Part shown: positions 3,025-28,516 of the stretch, piece by piece
How the letters are laid out: every line of letters starts with the position of its first letter
How positions within the stretch are numbered: the first letter of the stretch is position 1
Origin: Xanthobacter sp. NM-59
Lineage (GTDB): Bacteria > Pseudomonadota > Alphaproteobacteria > Rhizobiales > Xanthobacteraceae
Direction: 5' to 3'
NCBI RefSeq assembly: GCF_021401125.1
Contig: NZ_JACBFQ010000013.1
Coordinates: 1 to 64,000 of the forward strand
DNA: 64,000 nt
Made by a program: the position numbers and the translations under genes
Notes under the pieces: model-generated
Told to the model about the DNA's origin: nothing
Databases searched by the model: none
What the model saw: only the letters and a program-made list of their open reading frames with translations

Positions 3025-3366
3025 CCGCCGCCTGGCCCTCGCTTGGGCTGCCCAATCCGCCGGAGATAGGCGGGCGGCAGGCTCGACCAGTCGAACTGGT
3101 CCCGAAACTCGCCGCAAACATGATCACGCTGGGTCAGCACATGCCCCGCCCCCAGATCGAGGCTGCACGCCGCGATGCCCAGCACGGCGGTCCGCTCCTG
3201 CTCGGAGACCGGCGCACTCCGCGTGCATTCGCCTGCATGGCTGCCTGAGGCTGCGCCACCAGTCACAGCCCGCGCAGCATAGCCCCAGATCCATGTAAAA
3301 GGCATCCAGAAGTGCTTGGCGCTCACGCATCGCGCGCGCGCTCGCCACATGTCGGTCACGCCCCAT
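3021..3366 (-). pseudogene. Frameshifted zinc-knuckle protein gene
   Basis: The N-terminal half reads in one frame (RQALLDAFYMDLGLCCAGCD then WWR) and the C-terminal half in the next frame (TRSAPVSEQERTAVLGI, later QRDHVCGEF and FDWSSLPPAYLRRIG). Together they resemble a known small phage/plasmid family in which CCAGCDWWR is followed by a CTR-SAPVSG segment and a DHVCGDF...FDWSSLP tail (recalled, not searched). A one-base indel near 3245 explains the break. It could be a decayed gene or a base-calling error in a GC-rich run. A degenerate array motif (TTCCGGCTGAGGGTTGGGG) precedes it. Confidence 0.6.
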
Positions 3367-3631
3367 GGCCGGCCCCAACCCTCAGCCGGAACGTCCGCAC
3401 GATGCGCGGCCGGCCGCTCCTGTCGTGGCCGCGCAGTCGGCCCGGCTCGAACAGGTCCGGCGCCCGGCCGAGAGCCGCCAGGACCTTCTCCATGGCCTTG
3501 AGCGGATGGCCCGACGCCATGCCCGCCCGCGTTGCGATGGCGCCGAGGATCCCGTCGCCCCAGGAGACCGCGCAAAGCCCCTCTTCCGCGAGGACCTCCC
3601 GCGCTGTTTCGGCGATCGTCTTCCGCGCCAT
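3356..3631 (-). CDS. Array protein with paralogue at 13.3 kb, 91 aa
   Basis: Unknown soluble protein with an Ala/Glu-rich N-terminal helix (MARKTIAETAREVLAEEG) and a basic C-terminus. It is nearly identical to the gene at 13280-13570 over about 80 residues; the two diverge only near the C-terminus, where each runs into a different neighbour. The motif TTCCAACTGAGGAGCGGGAC sits directly before the start. It may be a small regulator or modifier; no function assigned. Confidence 0.7.
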   Translation of the reverse strand: MARKTIAETAREVLAEEGLCAVSWGDGILGAIATRAGMASGHPLKAMEKVLAALGRAPDLFEPGRLRGHDRSGRPRIVRTFRLRVGAGHGA

Positions 3632-3643
3632 CCGTCCCGCTCC

Positions 3644-4108
3644 TCAGTTGGAATCCGCCTCGACACCCTTTCGGTCTCTCCGGTCCTGCCCATGGGCGCG
3701 ATCACAGGCGCCCCAAGCGTAGAGAGCGCCCATGGGCAGCAGGACCAGGGCCGCGCCCGCCAGCGCCCCCTCCCAGCCGCCCCGCGCGCCGGCCAGGGCG
3801 CCGGCGCCGGTGAGGGCGACCAGCAGGCCCGTGCCGGGGTGACGCCCATAGTCGGGCAGCCAGCCCATCCCCCGGTTCACCTGGCGCAGGATGCGCAGGG
3901 CGCCACCGGCGCCGGCGGGCGAAAGCAAGAGGACAACCGCGCCCATCAGGCCGAAGACCGGAAGCGCCCCGCCCAAGAGCCCCGTCAGGTGCGCGACCCA
4001 CCCCGGCGCTGGGGCCCGCTCGGCTGCCAGCGCGCACAGCGAGAGCACGCCGATCAGCGCCGCATATCCCATGGCGGCCCGACGCCACGCCGCCAGATCC
4101 CCGATCAT
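3644..4108 (-). CDS. Four-helix membrane protein, 154 aa (family of three)
   Basis: Hydrophobic segments lie near residues 13-30, 43-65, 88-108 and 110-130, with the loop NRGMGWLPDYGRHPGTG between the second and third. Paralogues are at 13583-13888 (internally deleted) and 18682-19152. It ends Asp-Ser-Asn through the junction motif, and is preceded by a variant motif with one extra G (TTCCCAACTGAGGAGCG). Probably an inner membrane protein of unknown role. Confidence 0.7.
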   Translation of the reverse strand: MIGDLAAWRRAAMGYAALIGVLSLCALAAERAPAPGWVAHLTGLLGGALPVFGLMGAVVLLLSPAGAGGALRILRQVNRGMGWLPDYGRHPGTGLLVALTGAGALAGARGGWEGALAGAALVLLPMGALYAWGACDRAHGQDRRDRKGVEADSN

Positions 4109-4144
4109 CGCGCGCTCCTCAGTTGGGAACCGTCGTCCACACGA

Positions 4145-4414
4145 TCAAAACAAGAGCTGCTGCCTCACGGCGTTCCGCGACACGCCGTGGTTTTGGACAT
4201 AGACCTCGGCACGCGTGCCCCTGGTCACATTGACGTAGATTTCCGCCCCCAGGCCGTAGCCGTTCTGCCAGGTCAGAACGTCCCCCACCTCCAGATTCCA
4301 ATCCGTGAGCAGCTCGATGATGGTATAGCCATCATCCGGCGTATCCAGGGCCACCATTCCACGTTGCGGATTCTTCGCCACCACCGTGCCCTTGCGCTCG
4401 CCACCAGACCTCAT
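4145..4414 (-). CDS. Unknown beta-rich protein, 89 aa (paralogue at 16.9 kb)
   Basis: Highly similar to the gene at 16914-17183: both contain KGTVVAKNPQRGMVALDT, GDVLTWQNGYGLG and VYVQNHGVSR, and both end QQLLF. The sequence suggests a small all-beta cold-shock-like or SH3-like barrel (KGTV start, WQNGYG), which is inference. Its stop comes about 20 bases before the next junction motif, so here the motif is purely intergenic. Preceded by the variant TCCATGTAAGGAGC. Confidence 0.7.
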   Translation of the reverse strand: MRSGGERKGTVVAKNPQRGMVALDTPDDGYTIIELLTDWNLEVGDVLTWQNGYGLGAEIYVNVTRGTRAEVYVQNHGVSRNAVRQQLLF

Positions 4415-4424
4415 GTCTAGCTCC

Positions 4425-5105
4425 TTACATGGACGACCCGGGCCCGGTCGAACCCGGGCCCGATGGGGGCGAAAATTCCCCGTCGTCGTCCGGCTCGTCG
4501 TAGGGGCGTAGCCTGGTCTCCTGGGCCTCGGCCAGGGTGAAGGGAACCTCGCGGATCGCCCTGACGGCCGCCTCCACGTCCACGTTCATGCCCTGCCGGG
4601 CCAGCTCCTGAAGGAACAGCTTGGTGGTGACCAGCTGCAGCGGCACCTTGGAGGCCTGCAGGAGCCGCGGCACCTGCAGGTCCTCGTGCAGCACCAGCAC
4701 CGAGCGCACATCGGTCGGCGCCAGCTCCTCGACGAAGTCGCGGACCGCGCGCTCGCCGCCGTCGCGCTGGAGCCGCTTGAGCTTCACCATGGTCTCCGGC
4801 GTCCGCTCGCGGCCGAGCAGCGCGCTGTAGGCGATGCCCTCCACCGTCTCGACCCGCCGCACCGCCTCACCGGAGCGCTCGATCCAGTCCAGGATCTCCC
4901 GCGCATAGGGCTTGTCCGGATGACGGTGGCACGCTTCCATCTCGACCATGTCGACGATGACGATCTGCCGGTTGGTCAGCCGCACCGCGTCCAGAAGATG
5001 GGCCGCGGCCAGCCTCAGGAGAGGACCGGTATCCGCCACCACCACCGGGTCTCGTTGGTCAAGCATCAGCGTCGGCCCCTTCGCCACCTTCGGCAACCTG
5101 ATCAT
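4425..5105 (-). CDS. PIN-domain-like protein, 226 aa
   Basis: VVVADTGPLLRLAAAHLL (residues about 21-38) matches the first strand and acidic residue of PIN nuclease folds; VIVDMVEMEA supplies the second acidic pair, and a late segment (VLVLHEDLQVPRLLQ then LQLVTTKLFLQEL) resembles the end of the fold. PIN proteins are metal-dependent RNases, often toxins. ATG 5105 overlaps the stop of the upstream gene (ATGA), so the pair is coupled as in PIN toxin-antitoxin modules. The N-terminus MIRLP is shared with unrelated array genes, and the C-terminus ends GSSM. Confidence 0.65.
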   Translation of the reverse strand: MIRLPKVAKGPTLMLDQRDPVVVADTGPLLRLAAAHLLDAVRLTNRQIVIVDMVEMEACHRHPDKPYAREILDWIERSGEAVRRVETVEGIAYSALLGRERTPETMVKLKRLQRDGGERAVRDFVEELAPTDVRSVLVLHEDLQVPRLLQASKVPLQLVTTKLFLQELARQGMNVDVEAAVRAIREVPFTLAEAQETRLRPYDEPDDDGEFSPPSGPGSTGPGSSM

Positions 5106-5377
5106 GCCCCGCTCCTTAAGTGGAGAGGCGCGGGCGGCTTTGCCGCGAGGCGCCATTCGTTCATGCGCACGGCTCCGTTGAGGCTCTCGCGGTCCTTCGC
5201 GGGAGCGGACACCAGATCGCCCGACCGGCGAAGAGCCGCAAGCTCGTGCGCGGCCCGGACCATGCCGAGCGCGAACCGGTAGGCGACCTCGCGGGTGGTG
5301 GCCACCTCCTTCCGCCGGACGAACTCCAGGATCGTCTCCGACGTCTGGCCGGGACGCATCTCCACTATCTCGCCCAC
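5102..5377 (-). CDS. Possible partner of the PIN protein, 91 aa
   Basis: The start is a GTG directly behind AAGGAGCGAGAT; the ATG two bases upstream is out of frame and stops at once. Residues about 8-45 (SETILEFVRRKEVATTREVA) look like a short winged-helix or HTH. It overlaps the PIN gene by four bases, consistent with an antitoxin-like or regulatory role; this is context, not a recognised family. Confidence 0.5.
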   Translation of the reverse strand: MGEIVEMRPGQTSETILEFVRRKEVATTREVAYRFALGMVRAAHELAALRRSGDLVSAPAKDRESLNGAVRMNEWRLAAKPPAPLHLRSGA

Positions 5378-5387
5378 ATCTCGCTCC

Positions 5388-5825
5388 TTACTTAGAAGGA
5401 TCGTCGTTGCTAAAGCTCGACCGCAGGCGGGCGGGCTTGGGATAGGACCTCGCGAGAATCTGCCCCGCATACTCCTCGAGAGATGCGCCCGAGCCGATGG
5501 CTCTCCTCTCATCGCCCGCGGTCCACCAGAGCATCTCACGGCACGGCTTCAAGTGTGCTCCGTCGCCAGCGCCGCGCCCGTCTCCAACGTAGTCCTCGGG
5601 CACGATCACAAAGCGAATGTCCACGACATCGACCCCACGAGAAATAAGCTCAAGTGTGCGACGGCGCCCAGCAGGCCATCCACACGGAGCAATCAAGGTG
5701 ACCTGCCTTTCGTCATGACCAGGCTCCCGCCCGTGCTGAATGAGAACAAGCGCAACACGATCTTTAGTGCGGGATGAGAACGGCCCGACATCGATGTCGC
5801 CGATCTGCTCTGCAGAATAGCCCAT
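5388..5825 (-). CDS. Unknown protein, 145 aa
   Basis: ATG with GGAGGTTCCA before it. Mixed alpha/beta composition with a central VDVVDIRFVIVPEDYVGDG strand pair and a Pro/Arg-rich tail; no motif recognised. The C-terminus NDDPSK leads through a TAA into TAAGTAAGGAGCG, a strongly diverged junction. Part of the left-arm cassettes. Confidence 0.6.
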   Translation of the reverse strand: MGYSAEQIGDIDVGPFSSRTKDRVALVLIQHGREPGHDERQVTLIAPCGWPAGRRRTLELISRGVDVVDIRFVIVPEDYVGDGRGAGDGAHLKPCREMLWWTAGDERRAIGSGASLEEYAGQILARSYPKPARLRSSFSNDDPSK

Positions 5826-5836
5826 TGGAACCTCCT

Positions 5837-6373
5837 TCAGAAGGGAGACGGCCCGCAGATGTAGCCTGAAGACCGGTCATTGCCGCCCAGTTCGTCGCCA
5901 GGGCCTGCCAAGGTAATTGCGCCCGCATCGACTTTGCGGAATACGCAGCCCGCATAGGTGCCATTCGGCGCGGCGATACGATCCCTGATCTCGATGGCGC
6001 GCGCCGGCTCGCCACCGAACCAGCCGCAGTCGTCGTAGCCGAGTTCCTGGCACGAAAGCTGGTCCTCCTCATCGACAAGCTGCATGGTGGGCACAAGCCC
6101 GAGATCCAGGGCAGCCGCGATCCGATGCGAACCTTCAAGCGCTACGATCACGCCCTGCGTCTCATCGAGGATTGCCCGGAGAAGCGGAGCGCCGCGCGTC
6201 TTCATCTCCGCCTTGACCTCTTCGAGGTAGGCCGGGTCTACATCGTTGATCGTTACGATGTACTCTATCGTGGGCTGGTGCCGCGATGTGTCGCCGGCGG
6301 TGACGCGCTCGATCTCCGGTCGTTGAGGGGCGGGAGCACCTTCCTCCTCCTTCGGCTTCGGCAACCTGATCAT
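5837..6373 (-). CDS. ParB/Srx-like domain protein, 178 aa
   Basis: The segment GVIVALEGSHRIAAALDLGL (residues about 77-96) is the core of the ParB/sulfiredoxin-like fold, normally binding a nucleotide (GxHR box). ParB N-terminal-type domains of this size are found in plasmid and phage accessory genes, some as CTPases or nucleases. It lacks the HTH of true partition ParB. Begins MIRLP behind TCCATTTGAGGAGGGAGAGG and ends GPSPF. A decayed copy of its central part is at 7282-7472. Confidence 0.65.
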   Translation of the reverse strand: MIRLPKPKEEEGAPAPQRPEIERVTAGDTSRHQPTIEYIVTINDVDPAYLEEVKAEMKTRGAPLLRAILDETQGVIVALEGSHRIAAALDLGLVPTMQLVDEEDQLSCQELGYDDCGWFGGEPARAIEIRDRIAAPNGTYAGCVFRKVDAGAITLAGPGDELGGNDRSSGYICGPSPF

Positions 6374-6404
6374 CCTCTCCCTCCTCAAATGGACGTTTTC
6401 CCGC

Positions 6405-7274
6405 TCAACTTGGACTCGGCCCGCCCCACGGACGTGGCGGCGGTGCATCCTCGACCGTCTCTCCAACGTCGCGCTCCATTTCGGTGGTTAGAACGCGTTC
6501 CTGGCTCGGGTGGCACGAGACGAGGAACGTCATCATCTCGTCGGCATTTCTTCCGACATAGAAACGCACCATCTTTTCATTGAACTCCTGAGCGCGCGCC
6601 GCCGGTATACTCAGCGCATCCATGCCTGCGGTCATCAGAACACCGTTCATCATGAGCCGGGATGTTCTCTTATTGCCGTCGAAGAAAAACTGCTCGCGTG
6701 CTCCGAACAACGAAAAGGCAAGTCCTCGCTCAAACGGGTTCGCCACCTCCGCCTGAAGGGCCTCCACCCCCGAGGCGAATGCAGCATTCAACTCCGGCGC
6801 CCCAGGCACTGTGGGACGAGGAAGGAACCTGCCGGCTTCCCCTAGAGCCACTGCGGGCGTGAAGTGATGCTCCTGGCCCTCGCCACGAAAATGGCCCCAC
6901 TCCAGAGCTTCGTCCCGGGCAACGAGAGCGTGAAGCTCCACAAACGTCGCCTTGTTCAAACGAAATGCGCCGGTGCGCACCATATCCACCAGCCGTTTGG
7001 CGCTCTCTGCCAAATTGACGATCTGGTCCTGGTCCGACAGCTTCCGGCCGCCAACTGTAATCCCGTCGAGCACCGTCTTCACTTCCGGGAATGTGAAGGG
7101 GTTGCCCTCAAGCACAGCCGCATCCCAGACAAACTCGGGCAGCATCCGCCGAAAGCGGAAAAGCACACGATCCGTCGAGAACGTCGGAATGTTGGGAATT
7201 GCTTCCCTGTCCCAACTGAAGCCGAGAGCTTCGAAGAGATCAGCGGACTTCTGGCGCGACATCTTGATCACCAT
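6405..7274 (-). CDS. Fic-domain protein with altered catalytic motif, 289 aa
   Basis: The Fic loop reads EQFFFDGNKRTSRLMMN near residue 190 where active Fic enzymes have HPFx(D/E)GN(G/K)R; the catalytic His position is Gln. An N-terminal LEGN element (DAAVLEGN, about 51-58) resembles the inhibitory helix of class II Fic proteins. Fic enzymes transfer AMP or phosphate groups to target hydroxyls; with His replaced this one is probably inactive or does another reaction. ATG 7274 was chosen; ATG 7262 is possible. C-terminus ends GPSPS. Confidence 0.7.
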   Translation of the reverse strand: MVIKMSRQKSADLFEALGFSWDREAIPNIPTFSTDRVLFRFRRMLPEFVWDAAVLEGNPFTFPEVKTVLDGITVGGRKLSDQDQIVNLAESAKRLVDMVRTGAFRLNKATFVELHALVARDEALEWGHFRGEGQEHHFTPAVALGEAGRFLPRPTVPGAPELNAAFASGVEALQAEVANPFERGLAFSLFGAREQFFFDGNKRTSRLMMNGVLMTAGMDALSIPAARAQEFNEKMVRFYVGRNADEMMTFLVSCHPSQERVLTTEMERDVGETVEDAPPPRPWGGPSPS

Positions 7275-7281
7275 CTTTGAC

Positions 7282-7472
7282 CTACTTCTCGTCTTCATCG
7301 ACAAGCTACATGGTGGGCACAAGCCCGAGATCCAGGGCAGCCGCGATCCGATGCGAACCTTCAAGCGCTACGATCACACCCTGCGTCTCGTCGAGTATGG
7401 CGCGGAGGCGCGGAGCACCGCGCTTCGTCATCTCCGCCTTAACCTCTTCGAGCGAAGTGCGATCGCCATCTT
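7282..7472 (-). pseudogene. Decayed fragment of the ParB-like cassette
   Basis: In one minus-strand frame this reads EEVKAEMTKRGAPRLRAILD, GVIVALEGSHRIAAALDLGL and VPTM, almost identical to the centre of the gene at 5837-6373, but Gln after VPTM has become TAG and a second TAG follows seven codons later. No start codon is in frame. The intact motif TTCCAACTGAGGAGTG still sits immediately upstream, so a cassette has decayed while its junction survived. Confidence 0.75.
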
Positions 7473-7480
7473 TGCACTCC

Positions 7481-7714
7481 TCAGTTGGAACCGCTTGCCG
7501 CGACGGCGGGGATCTCGGCGCTGGCGGCAGCCAGGAGATCCGTCAGCGCGTCCACCTTGCCCGCCTCATCCTCCAGCCAATCCCGCCGCCCCGCCTCATA
7601 GCGGCACAGCGTCTCCAGCCGCTCCCAGCGGCGGCGGAGACAGTTCCGGATCCTTGGCGCCGGCCAGTCCCGAGCTTCCGCCCTGGCCGTCGCATATCCC
7701 AGCTCGTAGCTCAC
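7481..7714 (-). CDS. Small helical protein, GTG start, 77 aa
   Basis: GTG 7714 lies six bases after GAGGAGCGGATC. The protein is predicted mostly helical (YATARAEARDW, RRRWERLETLCRYEAGRR, VDALTDLLAAASAE) and ends Gly-Ser-Asn through the junction motif. No domain recognised; small helical array proteins may be inhibitors or adaptors, which is speculation. Confidence 0.6.
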   Translation of the reverse strand: MSYELGYATARAEARDWPAPRIRNCLRRRWERLETLCRYEAGRRDWLEDEAGKVDALTDLLAAASAEIPAVAASGSN

Positions 7715-7724
7715 GATCCGCTCC

Positions 7725-8612
7725 TCACATGGAAGGCCCGAACGACGACGGGGGAGCGAAACCGCCGCCGTCGTTCTCCGGCTCGTCATCTTCGCACGCG
7801 CGGGCCGGAAGAGCCGGCGTTGCCCCGGCTTCCCGCGCCGCCGTGATGTAGCGTTCCAGCGTCTCCTCGAGACGCTGGAACATCAGCCCGTCGAAGTCGG
7901 CAAATCCCCGGCCCGCTTGCCCGGCTTCCAGGGCACCGATATAGGCCGGCCGGTCCTCGGGCCGCACCGCGATAGGCGGATAGCCTCCCCGGACCAGCAC
8001 CAGGTTCATCAGCAGCCGGGCCGTGCGGCCATTCCCGTCATTGAACGGATGGATGCCGACCAGCCGCCGATGCGCCTCGAAGGCCGCCGGCGGCGTGTTC
8101 CCGGCGTGCTGGAGCCAAGTTGCGAATGCGTGCATCAGGGCGGGTACCTCCATCGGAGACGGAAAGTGGTACACACCAGCGTCCGTGTTCACATAGCGCG
8201 CGGCATCGGCGTAGCGGCCCGCGATCTCGGGCTTCGACTGGGCGACCACCAGTTGATGAAGGTTCCGGATATCGGCCTCACGGAGCGGCTCCGCACGCTG
8301 AGAGCCAATCTCAACCACCCATTCCAAGGCGCGGGCGTGATCCACGGCCTCGAGATGATCCTTCAGCGGCTTCCCGCTGACGGTGATGCCCTTCTCGATC
8401 ACCAGCGCGGTTTCACCGGCGGTAAGCGTGTTCCCCTCCAGGGCGTTCGAAGTGTAGGTGATGTCGATGCGCTGGGCGTGATCGAGATTGTCCAAGCCGC
8501 CGTGGCGCAGAGCGCCCTTCAAGGCGTCCAGCACGCGCTTCTTTTCCTCGAGCGCGTCAGCCCGTCGTGCCACCTCCGCTTCGGTCCCGCTCCTCGGCGG
8601 TAGCCTGATCAT
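7725..8612 (-). CDS. Fic-family protein adenylyltransferase, 295 aa
   Basis: Complete Fic core HPFNDGNGRTAR with His188, plus the N-terminal inhibitory motif TYTSNALEGN (residues 52-61), giving a class II Fic enzyme able to AMPylate or similarly modify Tyr/Ser/Thr of targets using nucleotides. Length is typical for the Fic/DOC family. About 90 percent identical to the gene at 13899-14792. Its first codons (MIRLPPRSGTEAE) include GAGGAGCGGGAC inside the coding sequence, a fossil junction. It ends FGPSM through TCC-ATG-TGA. Confidence 0.9.
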   Translation of the reverse strand: MIRLPPRSGTEAEVARRADALEEKKRVLDALKGALRHGGLDNLDHAQRIDITYTSNALEGNTLTAGETALVIEKGITVSGKPLKDHLEAVDHARALEWVVEIGSQRAEPLREADIRNLHQLVVAQSKPEIAGRYADAARYVNTDAGVYHFPSPMEVPALMHAFATWLQHAGNTPPAAFEAHRRLVGIHPFNDGNGRTARLLMNLVLVRGGYPPIAVRPEDRPAYIGALEAGQAGRGFADFDGLMFQRLEETLERYITAAREAGATPALPARACEDDEPENDGGGFAPPSSFGPSM

Positions 8613-8624
8613 CGTCCTCGCTCC

Positions 8625-8819
8625 TTAGTTGGAGCCGTCGTTGGGGACGCGCTTGCCAGTGACCACATCCACGACCCAAGCCGCGCGTCCGCCGGACTGC
8701 CAATCGGACAATGCGGCGCGAGCAGCGACAAGATCCCCGAAACTCTCCCGGAAACGCGGTTCGCCGCAGTCCCAATCCGATCGCGTGTTATCGAGACCCC
8801 AGATTTCAAACTGCAACAT
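8625..8819 (-). CDS. Small unknown protein, 64 aa
   Basis: ATG follows TTCCAACTGAGGAGCGAGAG. The sequence (MLQFEIWGLDNTRSDWD, then GKRVPNDGSN) is compatible with a compact alpha/beta domain. It ends Gly-Ser-Asn into a TTAGTTGGAGC-type junction (plus strand). No family recognised. Confidence 0.6.
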   Translation of the reverse strand: MLQFEIWGLDNTRSDWDCGEPRFRESFGDLVAARAALSDWQSGGRAAWVVDVVTGKRVPNDGSN

Positions 8820-8943
8820 CTCTCGCTCCTCAGTTGGAACGGATGGAGGACTGGATCTTTTGCTGATCCTAGTGCTCCTCCCACCACGCCCTGCATTCCG
8901 CACGGTGCCAACGGCGCCGGGAACCGGCCTTAAACAGCAGAGG
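8820..8943 (-). other. Gene remnant bounded by a junction motif
   Basis: About 120 bases with no start codon in a usable frame. One frame directly after the upstream gene's TGA reads FKAGSRRRWHRAECRAWWEEH and stops, which looks like a real protein tail without its head. A perfect junction motif closes the segment at 8822-8836. I read it as a cassette reduced by deletion. Confidence 0.4.
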
Positions 8944-21849: not shown

Positions 21850-21865
21850 AGGAGTGACAGCGGCC

Positions 21866-22132: not shown

Positions 22133-22170
22133 AGCACTCGGCGGCATGGGCGCCGACTTGGAGCGACACG

Positions 22171-22521
22171 ATGAGCAGTTCACACGGCTGGAGCGGAGTG
22201 CAGGCCCGGCACCGGGATGGGCGCGCGGGCGTCATCCGGGAGCGAGCCGGCTGGTGCTGGATCGACCTGCTCATTGAGCGGGAGGGCCACGAAATCGGCT
22301 TGGTCCAGCTCGCTTGCGATGGACCCGACCGGGGCGAAGAGGGATGGGCGTGGCTTTGGGACAAGGGGACCAGCGAAGCCATCTGGCTCCCGCTCGGCGA
22401 GTTTGCCCGAGCCCCCGAACCTGTCAGCCAGCACATCCGGGACCGGCACGCAGAACTCTTTGGCCCCGCGCCGCGGCTACGCCCTGTCGGCCTCACGACC
22501 AGCGCTTCAACTGATGGATGA
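22171..22521 (+). CDS. Unknown Trp-rich protein, 116 aa
   Basis: ATG after TTGGAGCGACACG. Trp-rich alpha/beta sequence (WCWIDLLIEREGHEIGLVQL, EGWAWLWDKGTSEAIWLPLG). The gene ends five bases before the next start through TTCAACTGATGGATGAGACC, a motif whose stop has been lost by one base change, so the protein reads on to Thr-Asp-Gly. Confidence 0.55.
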   Translation: MSSSHGWSGVQARHRDGRAGVIRERAGWCWIDLLIEREGHEIGLVQLACDGPDRGEEGWAWLWDKGTSEAIWLPLGEFARAPEPVSQHIRDRHAELFGPAPRLRPVGLTTSASTDG

Positions 22522-22525
22522 GACC

Positions 22526-22750
22526 ATGCCCGACACTGATTTCACGCCCGATGACCTCGGCACGGACGACGCCATGACCATCGGGATCAAAGTGGTGGAG
22601 ATGGCGAATCGCGTGAAGGCCATGCACACCATGCTTCCCGGTGCCCAGGCGTCCTGGGCCTTCGAGATGGACGGCACCCGGTTTGGCGTCGTCGTGACCG
22701 TCGTCAGCGACGATCCAAACGAGGGAGCAAGATCATGCAGTCGGCTTTGA
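22526..22750 (+). CDS. Small protein, 74 aa
   Basis: ATG after TGGATGAGACC. An acidic N-terminus (MPDTDFTPDDLGTDDAMTIG), a helix, and a strand pair (SWAFEMDGTRFGVVVTVVSD). Overlaps the next gene by 16 bases. Unknown. Confidence 0.5.
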   Translation: MPDTDFTPDDLGTDDAMTIGIKVVEMANRVKAMHTMLPGAQASWAFEMDGTRFGVVVTVVSDDPNEGARSCSRL

Positions 22751-23052
22751 GCCAACGACCCGCCGCCTATAGCCAGCTCGCCGCCGCGCTTCGTGCGTTC
22801 GCCGACGAGCACGGCCTGCCCAACGCGGTCAGTCCATCCGAACTGGCGCGCCTCACATGCGTAGGCGGACGCGATCTGACCGGCAGCCGCCTTCTGATCG
22901 GTCGGATTCTAACCAGCGAGCGCATCGCTTTGAACCGCGAACTGGCGAGGGTCGGGATTTCGGTGACGGCCTACGCTGATGGTCCGGAAGGCACGGGGAA
23001 ACTCGCTCACATCGACGCCGTGCCCGGCGCCAGCCCCTACAATTCCATTTGA
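22735..23052 (+). CDS. Unknown protein, possible DNA-binding fold, 105 aa
   Basis: ATG behind GAGGGAGCAAGATC. Helical N-terminus (SQLAAALRAFADEHGLPNAV), then VGGRDLTGSRLLIGRILTSE, compatible with an HTH-like fold. Ends Asn-Ser-Ile through TTCCATTTGAGGGATG. Confidence 0.5.
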   Translation: MQSALSQRPAAYSQLAAALRAFADEHGLPNAVSPSELARLTCVGGRDLTGSRLLIGRILTSERIALNRELARVGISVTAYADGPEGTGKLAHIDAVPGASPYNSI

Positions 23053-23115
23053 GGGATGATCGCATTTCCGGTGGTGCGCCGCAGGCCCGCCAAAGCCGTA
23101 GAGCGTGGCATTCCG

Positions 23116-23310
23116 CTATCCGCCGGCTTCGCCCTCGGACTTCTCCCTGGCGCCCCTGGCCCGGACGCGTGCACGGATCTCCCGCTCCACTGCGGCCCGC
23201 AGGAAGTCCGCGCGGGACTCGCCCTCGCCCAGCAGCGCGTCCACGCGCTCCAGCGTGCCTTCGGCCAGGCGCGCCGGCGTCTGCTCATAATTGGTTCTGC
23301 GTCGCCCCAT
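23116..23310 (-). CDS. RHH-type repressor, 64 aa, copy A
   Basis: Residues about 8-50 (YEQTPARLAEGTLERVDALL then ESRADFLRAAVEREIRAR) have the strand-helix-helix pattern of CopG-like repressors. It is divergent from the right-arm promoter and upstream of three TGATATCA palindromes, so autorepression and control of the arm is likely. 95 percent identical at DNA level to 25547-25753 apart from its C-terminal tail. Confidence 0.75.
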   Translation of the reverse strand: MGRRRTNYEQTPARLAEGTLERVDALLGEGESRADFLRAAVEREIRARVRARGAREKSEGEAGG

Positions 23311-23555
23311 GCCGATTGCCTTATATGATATCAAATAAGGCGTCAATGATGGCATTTTTCTGATATCATGTATTGACGACATAAATGATATCATCTATTT
23401 ATCACTCAAGGCGGCGGGACACCGCTCCACTCTTGAGGAAACCGAGATGTTTGTGGTCGTCAGATCCTATGGTCGATACGGGCGCGATTTCCTGCACGCA
23501 TGGGACGATCGCTGGGGCACAACTTGCATTGGCGCCGAGAAGCTCTCGATGCGTT
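23175..23555. repeat. 381-bp direct duplication, copy A
   Basis: Matches 25618-25998 without gaps (constant offset 2443 bases) and with few substitutions. It covers the RHH repressor, its operators, the plus-strand promoter and the first 36 codons of the gene at 23447. The two copies bracket 2.4 kb of cassettes, so recombination between them would delete or amplify these genes. Confidence 0.85.
23326..23401 (+). promoter_or_regulatory. Right-arm promoter with three TGATATCA operators, copy A
   Basis: TGATATCA occurs at 23326-23333, 23361-23368 and 23386-23393. The plus-strand promoter is TTGACG (23373-23378), 17-base spacer, TATTTA (23396-23401), with the third palindrome inside the spacer. 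A minus-strand TTGACG lies at 23343-23338 for the repressor gene. Confidence 0.8.
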
Positions 23556-23677
23556 TCGGCACGCTGGAGGCGGCAAACGTCGCAAAATCCCGAGCGGCAT
23601 GTCTTCTCATGTCTGGCGCGTGTGGCACCCTCTTCACTTGGTCGGTTGCCCCCGCCTCCGGCTCCAATTCCAACTGA
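23447..23677 (+). CDS. Unknown protein, 76 aa
   Basis: First rightward gene behind the operator region; ATG after TGAGGAAACCGAG. Sequence MFVVVRSYGRYGRDFLHAWD then LFTWSVAPASGSNSN; alpha/beta. Ends Ser-Asn-Ser-Asn. A 5' copy is at 25890. Confidence 0.6.
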   Translation: MFVVVRSYGRYGRDFLHAWDDRWGTTCIGAEKLSMRFGTLEAANVAKSRAACLLMSGACGTLFTWSVAPASGSNSN

Positions 23678-23689
23678 GGGACAAGACAG

Positions 23690-23908
23690 ATGACGCCCAC
23701 CACCATCATCATCCGCAACGAGCACGGCGCCGAAACTGCCCGCTGGCATGTCGATCACGACCAGCAGGAGCATCGGCAGTTCATGGGCAAGACGTCCTTT
23801 TGGGCGCTCCGCCATTCGCACAGCATGGAGAGCTTGCCCGGCTGGGTCGGCGCCGGCCGGCGCCGGGATGTGGGGGGTGCTCCCGCCTCCGAGCCCGCTT
23901 CCAACTGA
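23690..23908 (+). CDS. Unknown protein, 72 aa
   Basis: ATG after TTCCAACTGAGGGACAAGAC. Beta-strand start (TPTTIIIRNEHGAETARWHV) then His-rich helix; ends Ala-Ser-Asn. No family recognised. Confidence 0.55.
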   Translation: MTPTTIIIRNEHGAETARWHVDHDQQEHRQFMGKTSFWALRHSHSMESLPGWVGAGRRRDVGGAPASEPASN

Positions 23909-23919
23909 GGGACGAGACC

Positions 23920-24129
23920 ATGCAGATCTCCCACTTCACCGATGAACGCATCGCCGAGATCACCGGCCAGCAGTCCCCGATGACCGCGGAGGAGCGCTCG
24001 TTCCTTATCGCGAACACGCCCACGTTCGAGGAGTGCGCAGAGACCGCCGACGAGCTGTCCGCCATGGGCGACGTCGAGCTGATGCGCACCGCCTACAGTG
24101 TGTGGGCCGATTACGCCTCGTGCCTGTGA
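23920..24129 (+). CDS. Small acidic helical protein, 69 aa
   Basis: ATG after TTCCAACTGAGGGACGAGAC. Acidic and helical (ERIAEITGQQSPMTAEERSF, ECAETADELSAMGDVELMRT). An acidic protein of this size could mimic DNA, as known for some anti-restriction proteins, but that is speculation. Its TGA precedes the next motif. Confidence 0.55.
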   Translation: MQISHFTDERIAEITGQQSPMTAEERSFLIANTPTFEECAETADELSAMGDVELMRTAYSVWADYASCL

Positions 24130-24150
24130 ATTCCAACTGAGGGACCGACC

Positions 24151-24480
24151 ATGAAGATGCCTGCGCCCTACTGGACCATGACCTACTCGGCCTCCCGGCG
24201 GGCGCATCATCACCGCTGCCGCGGCTGCAACCGCATCATACAGGATGGCGAGCCCGTCCTCATGGCCCAGGTCGTCGCACGGGGCAGGAGCGGCAGCAAG
24301 ACAGCCTCCATCCACGCGACGTGTGCGGATCGTCCGAGCTTCGGCGGCTATACGGAGCGCGAGTACCTCGAGGCGCACGGAATGGCCTATCTCGCCGCCT
24401 GCGGCTGGAGGGAGGCGGAGCGCTTCATGAGCACCGCTCCCATCAACAAGCCCGGCGAGAAAGTCGCCCATTCCAACTGA
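24151..24480 (+). CDS. Zinc-binding protein, 109 aa
   Basis: HHHRCRGCNRIIQDGEPVLM followed by SIHATCAD resembles a treble-clef site in which CxxC pairs with a later HxxC, as in PARP-type fingers. Ends His-Ser-Asn. Probably binds DNA ends or RNA; function unassigned. Confidence 0.6.
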   Translation: MKMPAPYWTMTYSASRRAHHHRCRGCNRIIQDGEPVLMAQVVARGRSGSKTASIHATCADRPSFGGYTEREYLEAHGMAYLAACGWREAERFMSTAPINKPGEKVAHSN

Positions 24481-24490
24481 GGGAAGAAGA

Positions 24491-24553
24491 ATGACCGAAG
24501 ACCGTGCGTTTGAAATCGTGGCCGCCATCAATTCACGGGCCATTTCCAACTGA
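24491..24553 (+). CDS. 20-codon cassette remnant
   Basis: MTEDRAFEIVAAINSRAISN. The segment EIVAAINS plus Ala recurs in the protein at 27536 (HEIVAAINSWA), so this is probably a deleted copy of that gene keeping start and junction. The motif follows immediately. Confidence 0.45.
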   Translation: MTEDRAFEIVAAINSRAISN

Positions 24554-24564
24554 GGGACAAACAC

Positions 24565-24810
24565 ATGACCGAACAGACCTCCGCCGTGGAGCTGATGTAC
24601 TGGATCGAAACGCGCCGCTGGGAGCGGGAGATCGGCGCCCCTCTCGGACTGTTCAGCGGCCCCCACCCGGCGCGCCGGCCAAATCCGATGCGCCAGCGCG
24701 CGTGCCGGGCCTGCGGCTGCACGGACGACGACTGCTCGGGCTGCATCGGGAGGACGGGATTCGCCTGCCATTGGATCGAGCCCGACCTCTGCAGCGCATG
24801 TTCCAATTGA
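24565..24810 (+). CDS. Zinc-ribbon protein of phage type, 81 aa
   Basis: CRACGCTDDDCSGCIGRTGF then CHWIEPDLCSAC is a Cys-rich module found in many small phage proteins (C-x2-C-x-C ... C-x2-C ... C-H-W ... C-x2-C), recalled. The N-terminus MTEQTSAVELMYWIETRRWE is helical; MTEQT is repeated at 28517. Ends Cys-Ser-Asn. Confidence 0.65.
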   Translation: MTEQTSAVELMYWIETRRWEREIGAPLGLFSGPHPARRPNPMRQRACRACGCTDDDCSGCIGRTGFACHWIEPDLCSACSN

Positions 24811-24819
24811 GGGACGCCG

Positions 24820-25224
24820 ATGGTTGCCTATGGCTTCAAGCCAACCTTCGTGGTCGACATCCAGGAGCGCATCAAGCGCCAGACCATACGCCTTCCGCGC
24901 CGCCGACATGCTCGCCCGGAAGAAAGAGTGCAGCTCTTTCAGGGCATGCGGACCAAGGCGTGTCGAAAGATCATTCCCGATCCCGTCTGCATCGGCGTAG
25001 ACCGGCTTATTATCGACACTAGGTCAGGCAAGCTGGACCATGTGGAAGTGAATGGCATCGTGCTGCCGCTCGGAAGCGACGAACTGGCGGCCTTCGCCCG
25101 CGCTGATGGTTTCGGCCGCTCCGATCTCCCTCCGGTGGAGGTCTTTGGCCGCTGGTGGGCGATGGTGCACGGCCGGGTGCTGCATGAGGACCTGGTGCTG
25201 ATCCGGTGGGAGGACCGGCCTTAG
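24820..25224 (+). CDS. ASCH/PUA-like domain protein, 134 aa
   Basis: FKPTFVVDIQERIKRQTIR, GMRTKACRKIIPDPVCIG, DRLIID and ELAAFARADGF-RSD resemble phage ASCH-domain proteins that bind or modify RNA (family recalled). Ends with VLIRWEDRP and a normal TAG, not with a motif; the arm is interrupted here until 26.02 kb. Confidence 0.65.
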   Translation: MVAYGFKPTFVVDIQERIKRQTIRLPRRRHARPEERVQLFQGMRTKACRKIIPDPVCIGVDRLIIDTRSGKLDHVEVNGIVLPLGSDELAAFARADGFGRSDLPPVEVFGRWWAMVHGRVLHEDLVLIRWEDRP

Positions 25225-25287
25225 TCCATCGAATGCACGAGGGTCACGCAGAGCGCGGCGGCATCGTCCTCTGAAGACGATAGGCGC

Positions 25288-25431
25288 TCAGCCTCCGCTT
25301 CGACCTGACTCGCCTCTCAGCCCCTTGTCGAACAACTGGCGGATCGCCTCCGGACGCGTCGGGATGGGTCGCTGGGCGGCCCGCCATTCGTCAAGGCGCA
25401 GCAGCGCGTCCCGCGTCACCCGGTTTGGCAC
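25288..25431 (-). CDS. RHH-like protein, 47 aa
   Basis: GTG 25431 starts a frame reading MPNRVTRDALLRLDEWRAAQ, RPIPTRPEAIRQLFDKGLRG, a short ribbon-helix-helix (TRPEAIRQLF is the second-helix signature). No good Shine-Dalgarno sequence. Minus-strand and divergent from the arm; may be an extra regulator or a remnant. Confidence 0.5.
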   Translation of the reverse strand: MPNRVTRDALLRLDEWRAAQRPIPTRPEAIRQLFDKGLRGESGRSGG

Positions 25432-25546
25432 TGAGGGCCGAGAGCCATGCCCCTGAGGGAGGGATGACCGGCCAGGGCGAGGGCGTCTGAAGGCGCTTCA
25501 GATGAAACCTGGATAATCTGGATAGTGGGCCACGCGGCAAGCGCGT

Positions 25547-25753
25547 TCAGCCTCCGCCCGGCTCCCCATCCGGGTCCGACGCCCTGGCATCCCGCACCCG
25601 GGCGCGGGAGCGCACGCGGATCTCGCGCTCCACTGCGGCCCGCAGGAAGTCCGCGCGGGACTCGCCCTCGCCCAGCAGCGCGTCCACGCGCTCCAGCGTG
25701 CCTTCGGCCAGGCGCGCCGGCGTCTGCTCATAATTGGTTCTGCGTCGCCCCAT
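25547..25753 (-). CDS. RHH-type repressor, 68 aa, copy B
   Basis: Same protein as copy A for the first 45 residues (YEQTPARLAEGTLERVDALL, DFLRAAVEREIRVR) with a different C-terminal tail (RARVRDARASDPDGEPGGG). Together with its operators it sets a second promoter in the arm. Confidence 0.7.
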   Translation of the reverse strand: MGRRRTNYEQTPARLAEGTLERVDALLGEGESRADFLRAAVEREIRVRSRARVRDARASDPDGEPGGG

Positions 25754-25998
25754 GCCGATTGCCTTATATGATATCAAATAAGGCGTCAATGATGGCATTT
25801 TTCTGATATCATGTATTGACGACATAAATGATATCATCTATTTATCACTCAAGGCGGCGGGACACCGCTCCACTCTTGAGGACACCGAGATGTTTGTGGT
25901 CGTCAGATCCTATGGTCGATACGGGCACGATTTCCTGCACGCATGGGATGATCGCTGGGGCACAACCTGCATTGGCGCCGAGAAGCTCGCGATGCGTT
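25618..25998. repeat. 381-bp direct duplication, copy B
   Basis: See copy A at 23175-23555. Directly after position 25998 the copies differ by a 91-bp deletion that removes the equivalent of 23556-23646. Confidence 0.85.
25769..25844 (+). promoter_or_regulatory. Second right-arm promoter with three TGATATCA operators
   Basis: Palindromes at 25769-25776, 25804-25811 and 25829-25836; promoter TTGACG (25816-25821), spacer 17, TATTTA (25839-25844). It drives the distal half of the right arm. Confidence 0.8.
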
Positions 25999-26045
25999 TG
26001 CCCCCGCCTCCGACTCCAATTCCAACTGAGGGACGAGAACAATGA
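25890..26045 (+). pseudogene. Truncated copy of the 23.4 kb gene
   Basis: The first 36 codons match 23447-23677, then a 91-bp deletion (not divisible by three) joins Met-Arg to an out-of-frame LPPPPTPIPTEGREQ, so translation runs through the junction motif and ends at TGA overlapping the next start (ATGA). Confidence 0.7.
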
Positions 26046-26446
26046 CCGCCTATCGCATCCGTGTATCGCAGGACTTCACCGCTGTTCGGTCGATCGTCAT
26101 CACCGTGGACGCCGACAGCCTGCACGAGGCCATCGAGCAGGTGGAGTCGGGCGCCATCGACACCCCGGACTTCGAGGATGATGGCTGGCAGACGGCGTGG
26201 ACGCTCCGCAGCGAAAGCTGCGATCACGTCGGCGCCTGCGTCGAGACGCTGGACGAGGCAAAGTCCCTTTTCGCCGACGCGCCGAGCGCGGAGACAGCCA
26301 CCATCTACGTTGAGATGGCCCGCGTCTATGCCGACGACGAGATGATCGAGGAGGGCACATACGCGGCCGTCTTGGAGGAGGTCTCGCCGTTCCTGACCGC
26401 CGCCCGCGACGGCGCCCCGGCCACCAGTCCCCAACCTTCCAATTGA
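26042..26446 (+). CDS. Acidic protein, 134 aa
   Basis: ATG after TTCCAACTGAGGGACGAGAA. Repeated strand-helix units (SIVITVDADSLHEAIEQVES, YVEMARVYADDEMIEEGTYA) and high Asp/Glu content. Starts with YRIRVSQDFTAVRSI. May be a DNA mimic or ribosome-associated protein; unproven. Ends Pro-Ser-Asn. Confidence 0.6.
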   Translation: MTAYRIRVSQDFTAVRSIVITVDADSLHEAIEQVESGAIDTPDFEDDGWQTAWTLRSESCDHVGACVETLDEAKSLFADAPSAETATIYVEMARVYADDEMIEEGTYAAVLEEVSPFLTAARDGAPATSPQPSN

Positions 26447-26457
26447 GGGACGAAGCC

Positions 26458-26715
26458 GTGTTCACGCTCATGAAATCGCAGGTCGCGGCCATCCGCAAGA
26501 TGATCAGCTCGGGCACCGGCGACGCGGAGATCGCCGCCTATATGTCGGCTTGCCTGCGGGAGGCCGAAGTCGAGGCTCAAGTGGCCCTGTACGAAGATGA
26601 GATGCGCTATGGGCCGGACGACGAGCACGACGGGATGACCGGCGCCCAGCGCGAATTCAACGATCGGCTGAGCCTCGGCCGCAACGATGCCGGGGAGTGG
26701 CTCGGCTTCATGTGA
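26458..26715 (+). CDS. Small acidic helical protein, GTG start, 85 aa
   Basis: GTG after TCCAATTGAGGGACGAAGCC. Helical (SQVAAIRKMISSGTGDAEIA, EAEVEAQVALYEDEMRYG) with a charged end. The TGA comes 12 bases before the next motif. Unknown. Confidence 0.55.
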   Translation: MFTLMKSQVAAIRKMISSGTGDAEIAAYMSACLREAEVEAQVALYEDEMRYGPDDEHDGMTGAQREFNDRLSLGRNDAGEWLGFM

Positions 26716-26747
26716 AGCCGGCCACCCTTCCAACTGAGGGATGAACG

Positions 26748-26957
26748 ATGAATACTTTCGCCGAAAAATACACCATGCGCAGCCGCTTCTTCCAGCTGCT
26801 CGGTGAGGCCGGACAGATCCTGGCCGATGCCTATTGCGAAGCCGATGCCGAGAACCAGGCCGCGATCAAGGAAATGGCCTTCGAGGCGATGGCTGACTCC
26901 CTGATCGAGCATCACGGCTATCAGCGCGACGAAATCGCAGCGCCCATCGCGCCCTGA
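26748..26957 (+). CDS. Small helical protein, 69 aa
   Basis: ATG after TTCCAACTGAGGGATGAACG. Helices (YTMRSRFFQLLGEAGQILAD, ENQAAIKEMAFEAMADSLIE). Two stops before the next motif, which reads AACAGAGGG and therefore cannot encode the stop. Confidence 0.55.
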   Translation: MNTFAEKYTMRSRFFQLLGEAGQILADAYCEADAENQAAIKEMAFEAMADSLIEHHGYQRDEIAAPIAP

Positions 26958-26984
26958 CCTGACTTCCAACAGAGGGACAAGACC

Positions 26985-27272
26985 ATGACATTCACGCATG
27001 AAGAGGTCGAGCGCTGCAAAGCCGCGATGTCGAAGAAAGGGCCGCTGGAGGCCCTTCGCCTCATCGCCTCGGGTCGGGTGATTGTGGAGCTTACTTATGA
27101 TCGGCGTGACCTTTACGTCGATAGCCTCGACGGCCGGCCCGTCCGCGATCCCGATCAACCCGACCGGAAGATGTTGCTGAGCGGCGCATGGCCGCTTTAT
27201 CGCGCAGGCATGATCGACGAGTTCGGCTTGGTCACCGCCGCTGGGCACCAGACGCTCGCCACGTCCAATTGA
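26985..27272 (+). CDS. Small protein, 95 aa
   Basis: ATG after GAGGGACAAGACC. Helix (HEEVERCKAAMSKKGPLEAL), strands (GRVIVELTYDRRDLYVDSLD) and an RPVRDPDQPDRKMLL loop. Ends Thr-Ser-Asn. Unknown. Confidence 0.55.
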   Translation: MTFTHEEVERCKAAMSKKGPLEALRLIASGRVIVELTYDRRDLYVDSLDGRPVRDPDQPDRKMLLSGAWPLYRAGMIDEFGLVTAAGHQTLATSN

Positions 27273-27281
27273 GGGACACAC

Positions 27282-27524
27282 ATGACCGTCAAGCTCGCCC
27301 GGCCGGATCTTCCGGCCCACCATCCTCAGAACGTTCCGCTCACGGAGTGGACGGACGGCTGGCTGAAGATGAGCGTCTGCGAATACACGGACGCGCTCTA
27401 TCTCGTGGCCCACGATGAGGAAAAGCGCGCCAGGGGCTGGCCCGTGACGCGCGAGGAGATGATCGCGCTCCTGGTCGCCAACGGCAACATCCCCGCCGCC
27501 GGCACCGACTCTAATTTTAACTGA
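27282..27524 (+). CDS. Small protein, 80 aa
   Basis: ATG after TCCAATTGAGGGACACAC. Starts TVKLARPDLPAHHPQNVPLT and ends DSNFN where the motif reads TTT-AAC-TGA; WPVTREEMIALLVANGNIP is helical. Unknown. Confidence 0.55.
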   Translation: MTVKLARPDLPAHHPQNVPLTEWTDGWLKMSVCEYTDALYLVAHDEEKRARGWPVTREEMIALLVANGNIPAAGTDSNFN

Positions 27525-27535
27525 GGGACGAGACC

Positions 27536-28054
27536 ATGCCCAATACCAGTGCAGACCATATGATCGAGCAAGTCGCGAAGGCGATGAGGGCGAAACGTCG
27601 GGAACTCATCGCACGGCCGATTGCTGATATTTGGTCGGAATTGGCCACGACTGCTATTGAGGCCCTGCGGGATTCCCCATCCGTCGATCAGATGCGGGAA
27701 GATCGCGCGCACGAAATCGTGGCCGCGATCAATTCTTGGGCCGCCGTCACCTTGGGCCTCGACGTGTCCATGGGCGGCCTGGAGGGCGTCAGCCTCGCCG
27801 AGATGCTGGAAGCCAAGGAGATCGTGGAAACGAGGAATAGACGCGCCGCGGACGCCGCCGAGGCCAGCGGCGGCAGCTACAGCATCTCCGTGGTGCCGGA
27901 TGATCGCCTGGTCGCCGCAGCCTATTGCCTCGATCACTACCCGACAGGCAACGAGGCCATCCTCTGCGTCCCACGCCCCAGCTTCAACGGCACACATGCC
28001 GCCCTCGGCCTCGTGGCAATCACCCCCGACGATGAGAACGACGACGAAGCGTGA
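27536..28054 (+). CDS. Unknown protein, 172 aa
   Basis: ATG after TTAACTGAGGGACGAGACC. Helical N-terminus (EQVAKAMRAKRRELIARPIA), repeat segment HEIVAAINSWAAVTLGLDVS shared with the remnant at 24491, strand segment GGSYSISVVPDDRLVAAAYC. Largest of the right-arm cassettes. Ends just before a shortened junction (GTGAGGGGCGAGACC). Confidence 0.6.
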   Translation: MPNTSADHMIEQVAKAMRAKRRELIARPIADIWSELATTAIEALRDSPSVDQMREDRAHEIVAAINSWAAVTLGLDVSMGGLEGVSLAEMLEAKEIVETRNRRAADAAEASGGSYSISVVPDDRLVAAAYCLDHYPTGNEAILCVPRPSFNGTHAALGLVAITPDDENDDEA

Positions 28055-28065
28055 GGGGCGAGACC

Positions 28066-28455
28066 ATGACCGACAATTATATTGCGCAACTTCTGCCTCT
28101 TGCGCGGAGCCGCGCCGAGGACCTGGAGCAGATCGCCATCGATGCGGACAGCGACGAGAATTTAGATGCCGCCTCCCGCCAGTCAGCCCGCACGGATGCG
28201 GATGCCGCCTGGGCCGTAGTCGAAGCGGCCGAGCGCAACGATGACTGGCGGCCGATAGCGACTGCGCCGAAGGATGGGACATTCATGCTCGTGTGGAACG
28301 GCAGGCGGCTGCATGTTGCTGCTTTCGATCCCGTCGAGAATGGATGGATCTCGTCCTTCAAGACCGTGACGAAGCGACTGATGGTTGAGCCCAACCCCAC
28401 CCACTGGACCCCGGCCCCTACTCCGCCGAGCCACACCCCGGCTTATTCCAATTGA
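28066..28455 (+). CDS. DUF551-like protein, 129 aa
   Basis: The C-terminal half (DWRPIATAPKDGTFMLVWNG, WISSFKTVTKRLMVEPNPTH then W) fits DUF551, a small domain frequent in phages and prophages. Ends Tyr-Ser-Asn. Helical N-terminus ARSRAEDLEQIAIDADSDEN. Confidence 0.7.
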   Translation: MTDNYIAQLLPLARSRAEDLEQIAIDADSDENLDAASRQSARTDADAAWAVVEAAERNDDWRPIATAPKDGTFMLVWNGRRLHVAAFDPVENGWISSFKTVTKRLMVEPNPTHWTPAPTPPSHTPAYSN

Positions 28456-28516
28456 GGGACGAAGCATGACCGAGCAGTGACGACAAACGCTGCGATCAAG
28501 CCGCAACGACGAGGAC

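Follow-up and report, generated by a model that had tools for sequence, protein, structure and literature searches.

The window analysed here, that is, the whole 64,000-bp stretch of Xanthobacter sp. NM-59, which opens a contig of 137,400 bp (bases 1-64000) in a 4.96-Mb genome of 36 contigs, holds two divergent arrays of small genes connected by a short repeat, in which a TTCCAAC half, a stop codon and a Shine-Dalgarno half are fused and which we call the joint. The left array, the AG arm, is read from the minus strand and headed by the gene of a small serine recombinase, while the right array, the GA arm, is read from the plus strand (Table 1). Genes were called with our own simple caller, which is blind to the motif and returned 190 genes on the contig, 50 of them in the arms and 140 elsewhere.

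Occurrence and anatomy of the joint

With up to two mismatches, the core TTCCAACTGAGG matched the window 39 times against 3.56 expected, a count reached in 0 of 100 shuffles, and 37 of these matches fell inside the two arms on the strand of their own arm, the exceptions being 7210 (+) and 44817 (-); the exact copies in the window were strand-consistent in 17 of 17 cases. The first-pass annotation, which had been made from the letters alone, was right on both consensus forms, on the coordinates and on the divergent arrangement of the arms. Its figure of about 46 genes sharing the element holds as 46 sites in the arms at up to three mismatches (28 plus 18), but three of these (20459, 12217 and 25425) look spurious, and its wording that the element joins nearly every gene is overstated, since a joint lies within 45 nt upstream of 26 of the 50 arm genes at up to two mismatches and of 31 at up to three, compared with 0 and 3, respectively, of the 140 genes elsewhere on the contig. 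The exact form TTCCAAYTGAGG occurs 20 times in the whole genome, all within 3642-28457, and a host-wide start signal is therefore ruled out; the check for an equal frequency before host genes, proposed by the same annotation, was thereby run, with 20 of 20 exact copies in the arms and none before the other contig genes.

Among 14 Xanthobacter genomes, our own included, one other (G008) carries an array, with 11 sites at the same motif positions as in plasmid NZ_CP063365.1 of Xanthobacter dioxanivorans YN2, and the remaining 12 hold none or one. The same gene count on this related plasmid gave a joint at 14 of 19 arm genes at up to two mismatches (15 at up to three) and at 0 of 52 genes elsewhere (1 of 52). 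More than four matches were found in none of 391 genomes of the family except these two. Genome contigs searched with TTCCAACTGAGGRRCGA gave 71 stretches with one match each, a result from which near records may be missing, as the other Xanthobacter array is; these single matches were taken as background without a computed expectation. Viral contigs gave four single matches and no array, and 397 genomes of the order searched with TCCAAYTGAGGRRNG revealed no array. The genome G753 showed 11 matches to TCCAAYTGAGGRRNG, of which 10 were listed, with TCCAACTGAGGGAGG at most 131 nt from five contig starts, which is probably the end of an insertion sequence. A search of the open-access literature found no paper describing the joint or a serine-recombinase cassette array.

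The two arms differ in the dinucleotide that follows the core. Counted over both Xanthobacter plasmids at sites with up to two mismatches and a GAGG-like end, it was AG at 29 of 33 AG-arm sites and GA at 20 of 23 GA-arm sites, with no crossed case (Fisher 3.5e-14 on the 49 typical sites); the seven atypical ones, namely AC three times and GT, TG, AA and CG once each, stand outside the Fisher table. The recombinase heads the AG arm in both plasmids, and related cassettes sit in the same kind of arm (9888/49509, 24151/41918, and 14805 plus 19325/49933), with the exception of the AG-arm gene 49064 of the other plasmid, whose relative here lies outside the arms (46408). Judging from these sequences, exchange seems to happen within arms.

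The element is a feature of gene ends as much as of gene starts. At many sites, the upstream gene ends in frame with the TGA, TAA or TAG of the repeat, and TCC AAC are its last codons before this stop. Codon -2 is TCC in 23 of the 50 arm genes of the window and in 13 of 19 of the related plasmid, compared with 6 of 140 and 1 of 52 genes outside the arms. Where arm genes have serine at this codon, 36 of 38 use TCC, a codon making up 22-24% of the serine codons in those contigs, and TTCCAA is therefore kept as nucleotides and not as Ser-Asn. At some sites (e.g., 16481, 16886 and 24131) the upstream gene has already ended before the joint, and at 26964 the joint TTCCAACAGAGG is without a stop, the upstream gene ending earlier. 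The start codon lies 7-10 nt past the core at 37 of 46 window sites and 15 of 22 sites of the related plasmid, so that the 3' half acts as a ribosome-binding site here. TTCCAAC itself is not an extended Shine-Dalgarno sequence; in most cases it forms the 3' terminus of the preceding gene (TCC-AAC-stop).

Table 1. Arms, joints and selected genes of the window (by eye: joint recognised by eye; HTH: helix-turn-helix).
Feature	Position	Strand	Remarks
AG arm	3352-19850	-	small-gene array, joint TTCCAACTGAGGAGCG, recombinase-headed
GA arm	21840-28465	+	divergent array, joint TTCCAACTGAGGGACGA
Small serine recombinase	19858-20499	-	Resolvase PF00239 and HTH, heads AG arm, Pfam E 2.8e-45
Recombinase upstream site	20536-20601	-	TTCCAG/TTCCAA direct repeats
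Fic-domain protein cassette, copy 1	7725-8612	-	92% identical to copy 2
Fic-domain protein cassette, copy 2	13899-14792	-	
Abortive-infection cassette	15088-16260	-	AbiJ_NTD3 and Abi_C, homologue in Thalassospira array
Protelomerase (ResT/TelK)	28996-30789	+	adjoins GA arm, replicon context only
Variant joint TTCCGGCTGAGG	3380-3391	-	break point of cassette A
Exact joint	3642-3653	-	
Joint	4117-4128	-	3' boundary of cassette E, past noncoding tail
Degenerate joint GTCCATGTAAGG	4423-4434	-	by eye, 5' boundary of cassette E
Exact joint	7479-7490	-	
Joint TTCCATGTGAGG	7723-7734	-	3' boundary of Fic cassette
Joint CTCCAACTAAGG	8623-8634	-	5' boundary of Fic cassette
Exact joint	8828-8839	-	
Exact orphan joint	9640-9651	-	no start codon 3-17 nt on
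Joint	9886-9897	-	
Joint TTCCACCTGAGG	13278-13289	-	mini-cassette end
Variant joint TTCCGGCTGAGG	13319-13330	-	within cassette A, break point
Exact joint	13581-13592	-	
Degenerate joint GTCCATTTAAGG	13897-13908	-	by eye, 3' boundary of second Fic cassette
Exact joint	14803-14814	-	between cassettes C and Fic
Joint	15086-15097	-	5' boundary of cassette C
Joint	16300-16311	-	
Exact joint	16481-16492	-	past stop of upstream gene
Exact joint	16886-16897	-	3' boundary of second cassette E
Exact joint	17192-17203	-	5' boundary of second cassette E
Variant joint TTCCGGCTGAGG	17233-17244	-	mini-cassette start
Joint	17328-17339	-	
Joint	18680-18691	-	
Exact joint	19605-19616	-	5' boundary of second cassette C
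Joint TTCCAATTGAAG	21840-21851	+	
Joint TTCCATTTGAGG	23043-23054	+	
Exact joint	23668-23679	+	
Exact joint	23899-23910	+	
Exact joint	24131-24142	+	
Exact joint	24471-24482	+	start of 20-codon open reading frame
Exact joint	24544-24555	+	
Joint TTCCAATTGAGG	24801-24812	+	
Exact joint	26020-26031	+	
Joint TTCCAATTGAGG	26437-26448	+	
Exact joint	26728-26739	+	
Joint TTCCAACAGAGG	26964-26975	+	stop lost
Joint GTCCAATTGAGG	27263-27274	+	
Joint TTTTAACTGAGG	27515-27526	+	
Last joint	28446-28457	+	followed by 4-codon remnant

Break points of duplicated cassettes

Self-comparison revealed 11 duplicated blocks in the arms, with 22 block ends. Taking the sites of up to three mismatches as found, 4 of the 22 ends had a joint no more than 6 nt away in both copies against 0.03 expected, and 7 had one within 13 nt against 0.09; with three degenerate joints recognised by eye added, these counts were 6 and 9. 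In every version, 0 of 10,000 random slides equalled the observed counts. An earlier block test, from which three spurious sites had been dropped and to which the three by-eye joints had been added, two of them at known break points, is biased in favour of a role of the joint in recombination.

Individual pairs locate the breaks more closely. In cassette E (4145-4414 and 16914-17183), the two copies stay similar beyond the stop, along a noncoding tail, up to a break at TTCCAACTGAGGAG, and in cassette A (3356-3631 and 13280-13570) the likeness breaks within the reading frame, directly after TTCCGGCTGAGG. Both neighbours of the Fic and C cassettes differ between their two places, and a mini-cassette of 41 nt with an 11-codon frame is present twice. 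In the informative pairs, namely on the 3' side of Fic and the 5' side of E, each joint is divided between its two neighbours, the 5' half staying with the gene before it and the 3' half with the gene after it, a partition that would place the exchange in the central TRAGG. Of the three roles that the first-pass annotation had offered for the element (translation enhancer, binding site or recombination joint), the last is borne out by duplicated cassettes that break at it, and the joint very probably represents the boundary of moved DNA, as judged from the compared copies.

Two remnants in the GA arm, 24471-24552 with a 20-codon frame and 28446-28560 with a 4-codon one, resemble by eye stretches of neighbouring cassettes, as they would after joint-to-joint deletion. 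The same arm carries a 98% repeat (23174-23556 and 25617-25999) that contains a small gene and TATGATATCA palindromes with an operator-like look.

The head recombinase, its relatives and their replicons

PF00239 covers residues 8-144 of the recombinase, and several HTH models match residues 133-189, all just under the Pfam cut-offs; the ten best phage records, some annotated as DNA invertase, are 46-49% identical to it. The direct repeats upstream of its gene start at 20601, 20588, 20559 and 20546, with a spacing of 13/29/13. The repeats are conserved in X. dioxanivorans, where they are partly degenerate, and in Agrobacterium tumefaciens pAtG3_79c, a plasmid with a VirB-type transfer system whose recombinase is 78-83% identical, the value varying with the stretch compared. 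Such repeats also stand in Thalassospira xiamenensis M-5 plasmid NZ_CP004389.1 and the contig G977:C17 of another family of Alphaproteobacteria, whose recombinases are 44-48% identical. Between the repeat pairs lie either 29-31 or 10-11 nt, two lengths that differ by roughly two turns of the helix. A tree of 31 recombinases places these five on one side of a branch with a support of 98/95, and the HTH helix VSKSTLY is identical in all of them.

The clade was first noticed through its upstream TTCCAA repeats, so the actual test lies in the other homologues. Starting with 117 loci, 99 were kept after dropping those with less than 150 nt upstream or less than 20 nt downstream, repeats and loci without a match; all 5 clade members have at least two TTCCAA within 200 nt upstream, a number reached by 0 of the 94 others, five of which have one. 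Of the 80 viral-contig loci kept out of 573 and the 6 loci of 5 further genomes of the phylum, none showed at least two upstream TTCCAA, as far as the flank sufficed for counting. At E 1e-60, with seven candidates scored per genome, none of 397 genomes of the order besides our own yielded a close relative of the recombinase. The suggestion of a binding site gains weight from these repeats before the array-head recombinase, which tie the 5' half of the joint to one recombinase clade, and the recombinase probably recognises TTCCAA.

The recombinase gene itself ends in TTCCAA in 3 of 5 clade members compared with 0 of 94 other homologues, the ends (TTCCAAMTRA) being TTCCAAATAAGGCGCG in pAtG3_79c, TTCCAAATAAGGGACG in Thalassospira and TTCCAACTGACGGAA in G977. 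In Thalassospira, the joint TTCCAAHTAAGGGA recurs six more times on the minus strand and one joint is divergent, which makes a total of 8 in 20 kb where 0.37 would be expected, and G977 has 5 joints in 5 kb against 0.16, one of them within the upstream repeats, both stretches having been picked once the joints were known. In G977, TTCCAACTRACGGAA occurs three times without a fused Shine-Dalgarno sequence. The genes of the Thalassospira array include a RES/MbcA pair, an abortive-infection protein and a SIR2-like protein, with a catabolic block inside the array, and the AbiJ-like cassette of the window has a relative there (55% over 175 aa). The RES/MbcA toxin-antitoxin pair of that array has a counterpart in the gene pair at 37012-38222, outside the arms of the window, with identities of 38% and 44%.

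As for the replicon, the two ends of the Xanthobacter contig are inverted relative to each other, being 97% alike over 347 bp and 89% over the next 799. A second protelomerase is encoded at 132193-134601 of the contig, beyond the window, and the two match ResT/TelK in Pfam at E 5e-32 and 1e-33. The contig also encodes Dot/Icm-like transfer proteins, a pilus-type secretin and ATPase, a topoisomerase, ParA and ParM-like proteins, and a Strawberry-notch helicase. Both marks of a hairpin linear plasmid, a protelomerase and inverted repeats at the termini, are present, and the contig is probably such a plasmid with Dot/Icm-like transfer genes and pilus genes. The Rhizobiaceae hairpin linear plasmids are described as carrying a protelomerase, terminal inverted repeats, parA/parM and a topoisomerase (PMC13293297), all of which the Xanthobacter contig shares. 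The motif showed 0 copies in five other alphaproteobacterial protelomerase plasmids, so it is no general trait of hairpin plasmids and linearity is local context only. A phage origin was likewise rejected, with 0 phage structural families among the Pfam matches of 28 contig, 10 array and 4 further proteins, a scan that covered a minority of the 190 gene calls.

Interpretation and comparison with known systems

Our preferred reading, held at about even odds, takes the repeat as joining the cassettes of a recombinase-linked gene array on a plasmid with transfer genes. A cassette would then begin at the ribosome-binding half of a joint, GGAGCG or GGGACG, and reach to its own 3' TTCCAAY-TRA, with the start codon mostly 7-10 nt past that half. 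A single joint would close one gene with its last codons and stop and provide the following gene with its ribosome-binding site, so that any cassette between two joints would be expressed and terminated correctly. The recombinase would bind TTCCAA via its HTH with the shared VSKSTLY helix and, perhaps together with ordinary short-repeat recombination, exchange cassettes at the joint, with a putative crossover in the central TRAGG, inside TTCCAACTRAGG. Catalysis by the recombinase at the joint is a serious candidate, though it falls slightly short of an even chance.

Several points weigh against such an array. Cassette movement was not seen, and no two near-identical arrays were found for comparison. 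The classical crossover site of serine recombinases consists of two half-sites over about 26 bp, and the joint has no clear second half-site, a dyad being clear only in G977 (TTCC-N7-GGAA, read by eye). Neither Xanthobacter recombinase gene ends in TTCCAA; in pAtG3_79c, 4 of 46 gene ends carry TTCCA, three of them at consecutive genes and one of these degenerate; and only five replicons are known. PLSDB classes all three named plasmids as non-mobilizable, and transfer is unproven. Of the 22 block ends, 15 lie away from joints (13 with the by-eye joints), including both ends of the B comparisons, and the slide test cannot separate joints from gene ends, which only the pairs E and A do.

Moreover, recombination between short repeats would leave identical break points without any recombinase. 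Such homologous or illegitimate recombination might shuffle the cassettes alone, the recombinase being an incidental plasmid dimer resolvase at the head of the array; 12-20 shared bases suffice for the break points, the retention of its own joint form by each arm fits a benefit of longer identity within the arm, and small serine recombinases are common on plasmids (at least 5000 matching records). We regard this account as unlikely, if worth keeping in view, as it leaves unexplained why TTCCAA occurs in both the joint and the repeats upstream of the recombinase (5/5 versus 0/94), and also at the recombinase gene end in three further replicons. Translation coupling, in which stop, Shine-Dalgarno sequence and start would be fused for reinitiation and TTCCAAC would aid termination or ribosome retention, agrees with the distance of the start codon in both plasmids (37/46 and 15/22) and with a stop that is often in frame with the upstream gene. 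It appears improbable, however, given that the Shine-Dalgarno sequence of G977 stands apart from its joint TTCCAACTRACGGAA and that the recombinase-end joints of Thalassospira and G977 are followed by no start codon with at least 40 codons in the 50 nt scanned; both facts speak against TTCCAAC as a translation signal, and the G977 arrangement does so most strongly. On the same grounds an extended Shine-Dalgarno sequence was rejected, and a translation enhancer, suggested for the TTCCAAC half by the first-pass annotation, finds no support. Coupling also leaves the upstream repeats unexplained, and the pairs E and A break at the joint, not at the gene end. Quite remote, finally, is the possibility that TTCCAA is an operator at all junctions, bound by the recombinase or another plasmid protein and making the arrays one regulon: the direct repeats with 13-nt spacing before the recombinase look protein-binding and could be autoregulatory, but the array sites sit at gene ends, and an operator predicts no tie to the break points of cassettes.

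Read as a recombinase-linked cassette array, the locus works like an integron array yet is not one, its head enzyme being of another class. Both share a recombinase at the head and a one-orientation array of mostly unrelated small genes, many with the same 3' site. In integrons, IntI is a tyrosine-recombinase integrase and the attC sites fold as single strands, whereas the Xanthobacter array is headed by a small serine recombinase (PF00239) and has a joint of about 16 bp, itself stop and ribosome-binding site, in two divergent arms. In the lambdoid nin region, conserved boundary sequences act as recombination joints, and we know of no serine recombinase linked to them. Its small nonessential genes meet in overlapping stop/start motifs (ATGA) (PMC8022706), similarly packed junctions that are phage-borne and of other sequence. 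The start-associated sequences of cluster K mycobacteriophages, brought forward as the nearest analogue by the first-pass annotation, are short asymmetric repeats bearing a Shine-Dalgarno sequence before many non-structural genes and nearly absent from the host; they consist of the 13-bp GGGATAGGAGCCC placed 3-7 bp before starts, in contrast to the Xanthobacter core TTCCAACTGAGG ending 7-10 nt before the start at 37 of 46 sites, and the parts of the source covered here mention no link to a recombinase or to cassette breaks (PMC3203893). The analogy stands as far as a short Shine-Dalgarno repeat before genes is concerned, but sequence, spacing and company differ, leaving a look-alike outside the cluster K definition. 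The small serine resolvases and invertases (Tn3/gamma-delta, Sin, Gin/Hin) share the PF00239 fold and the HTH, while their classical inverted crossover site has no clear counterpart at the Xanthobacter joint. To our knowledge, none of them heads a cassette array. Direct repeats as the target of a serine resolvase have a precedent in site II of Sin (PMC2428073).

With due reserve, and leaning somewhat to the doubtful side, one may envisage a gene-capture platform in a class of its own, the "serine integron", in which a small serine recombinase clade recognising TTCCAA would assemble defence-like cassettes into divergent arrays, on plasmids from at least two alphaproteobacterial orders (Hyphomicrobiales and Rhodospirillales), the 16-bp joint being recombination site, stop and ribosome-binding site in one and a resident site possibly lying at the 3' end of the recombinase gene. 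If true, plasmids would possess a gene-cassette system besides integrons, on an unrelated recombinase class, whose joint renders the inserted gene translatable. Among the cassettes are AbiJ and Fic genes in Xanthobacter and SIR2-like, abortive-infection and toxin-antitoxin genes in Thalassospira, so that such arrays could let plasmids collect and trade defence genes. Even with short-repeat recombination alone, the arrays would keep a readable record of joint-to-joint exchange, and if the recombinase-linked array is real, the joint would offer a handle for finding undescribed defence genes.

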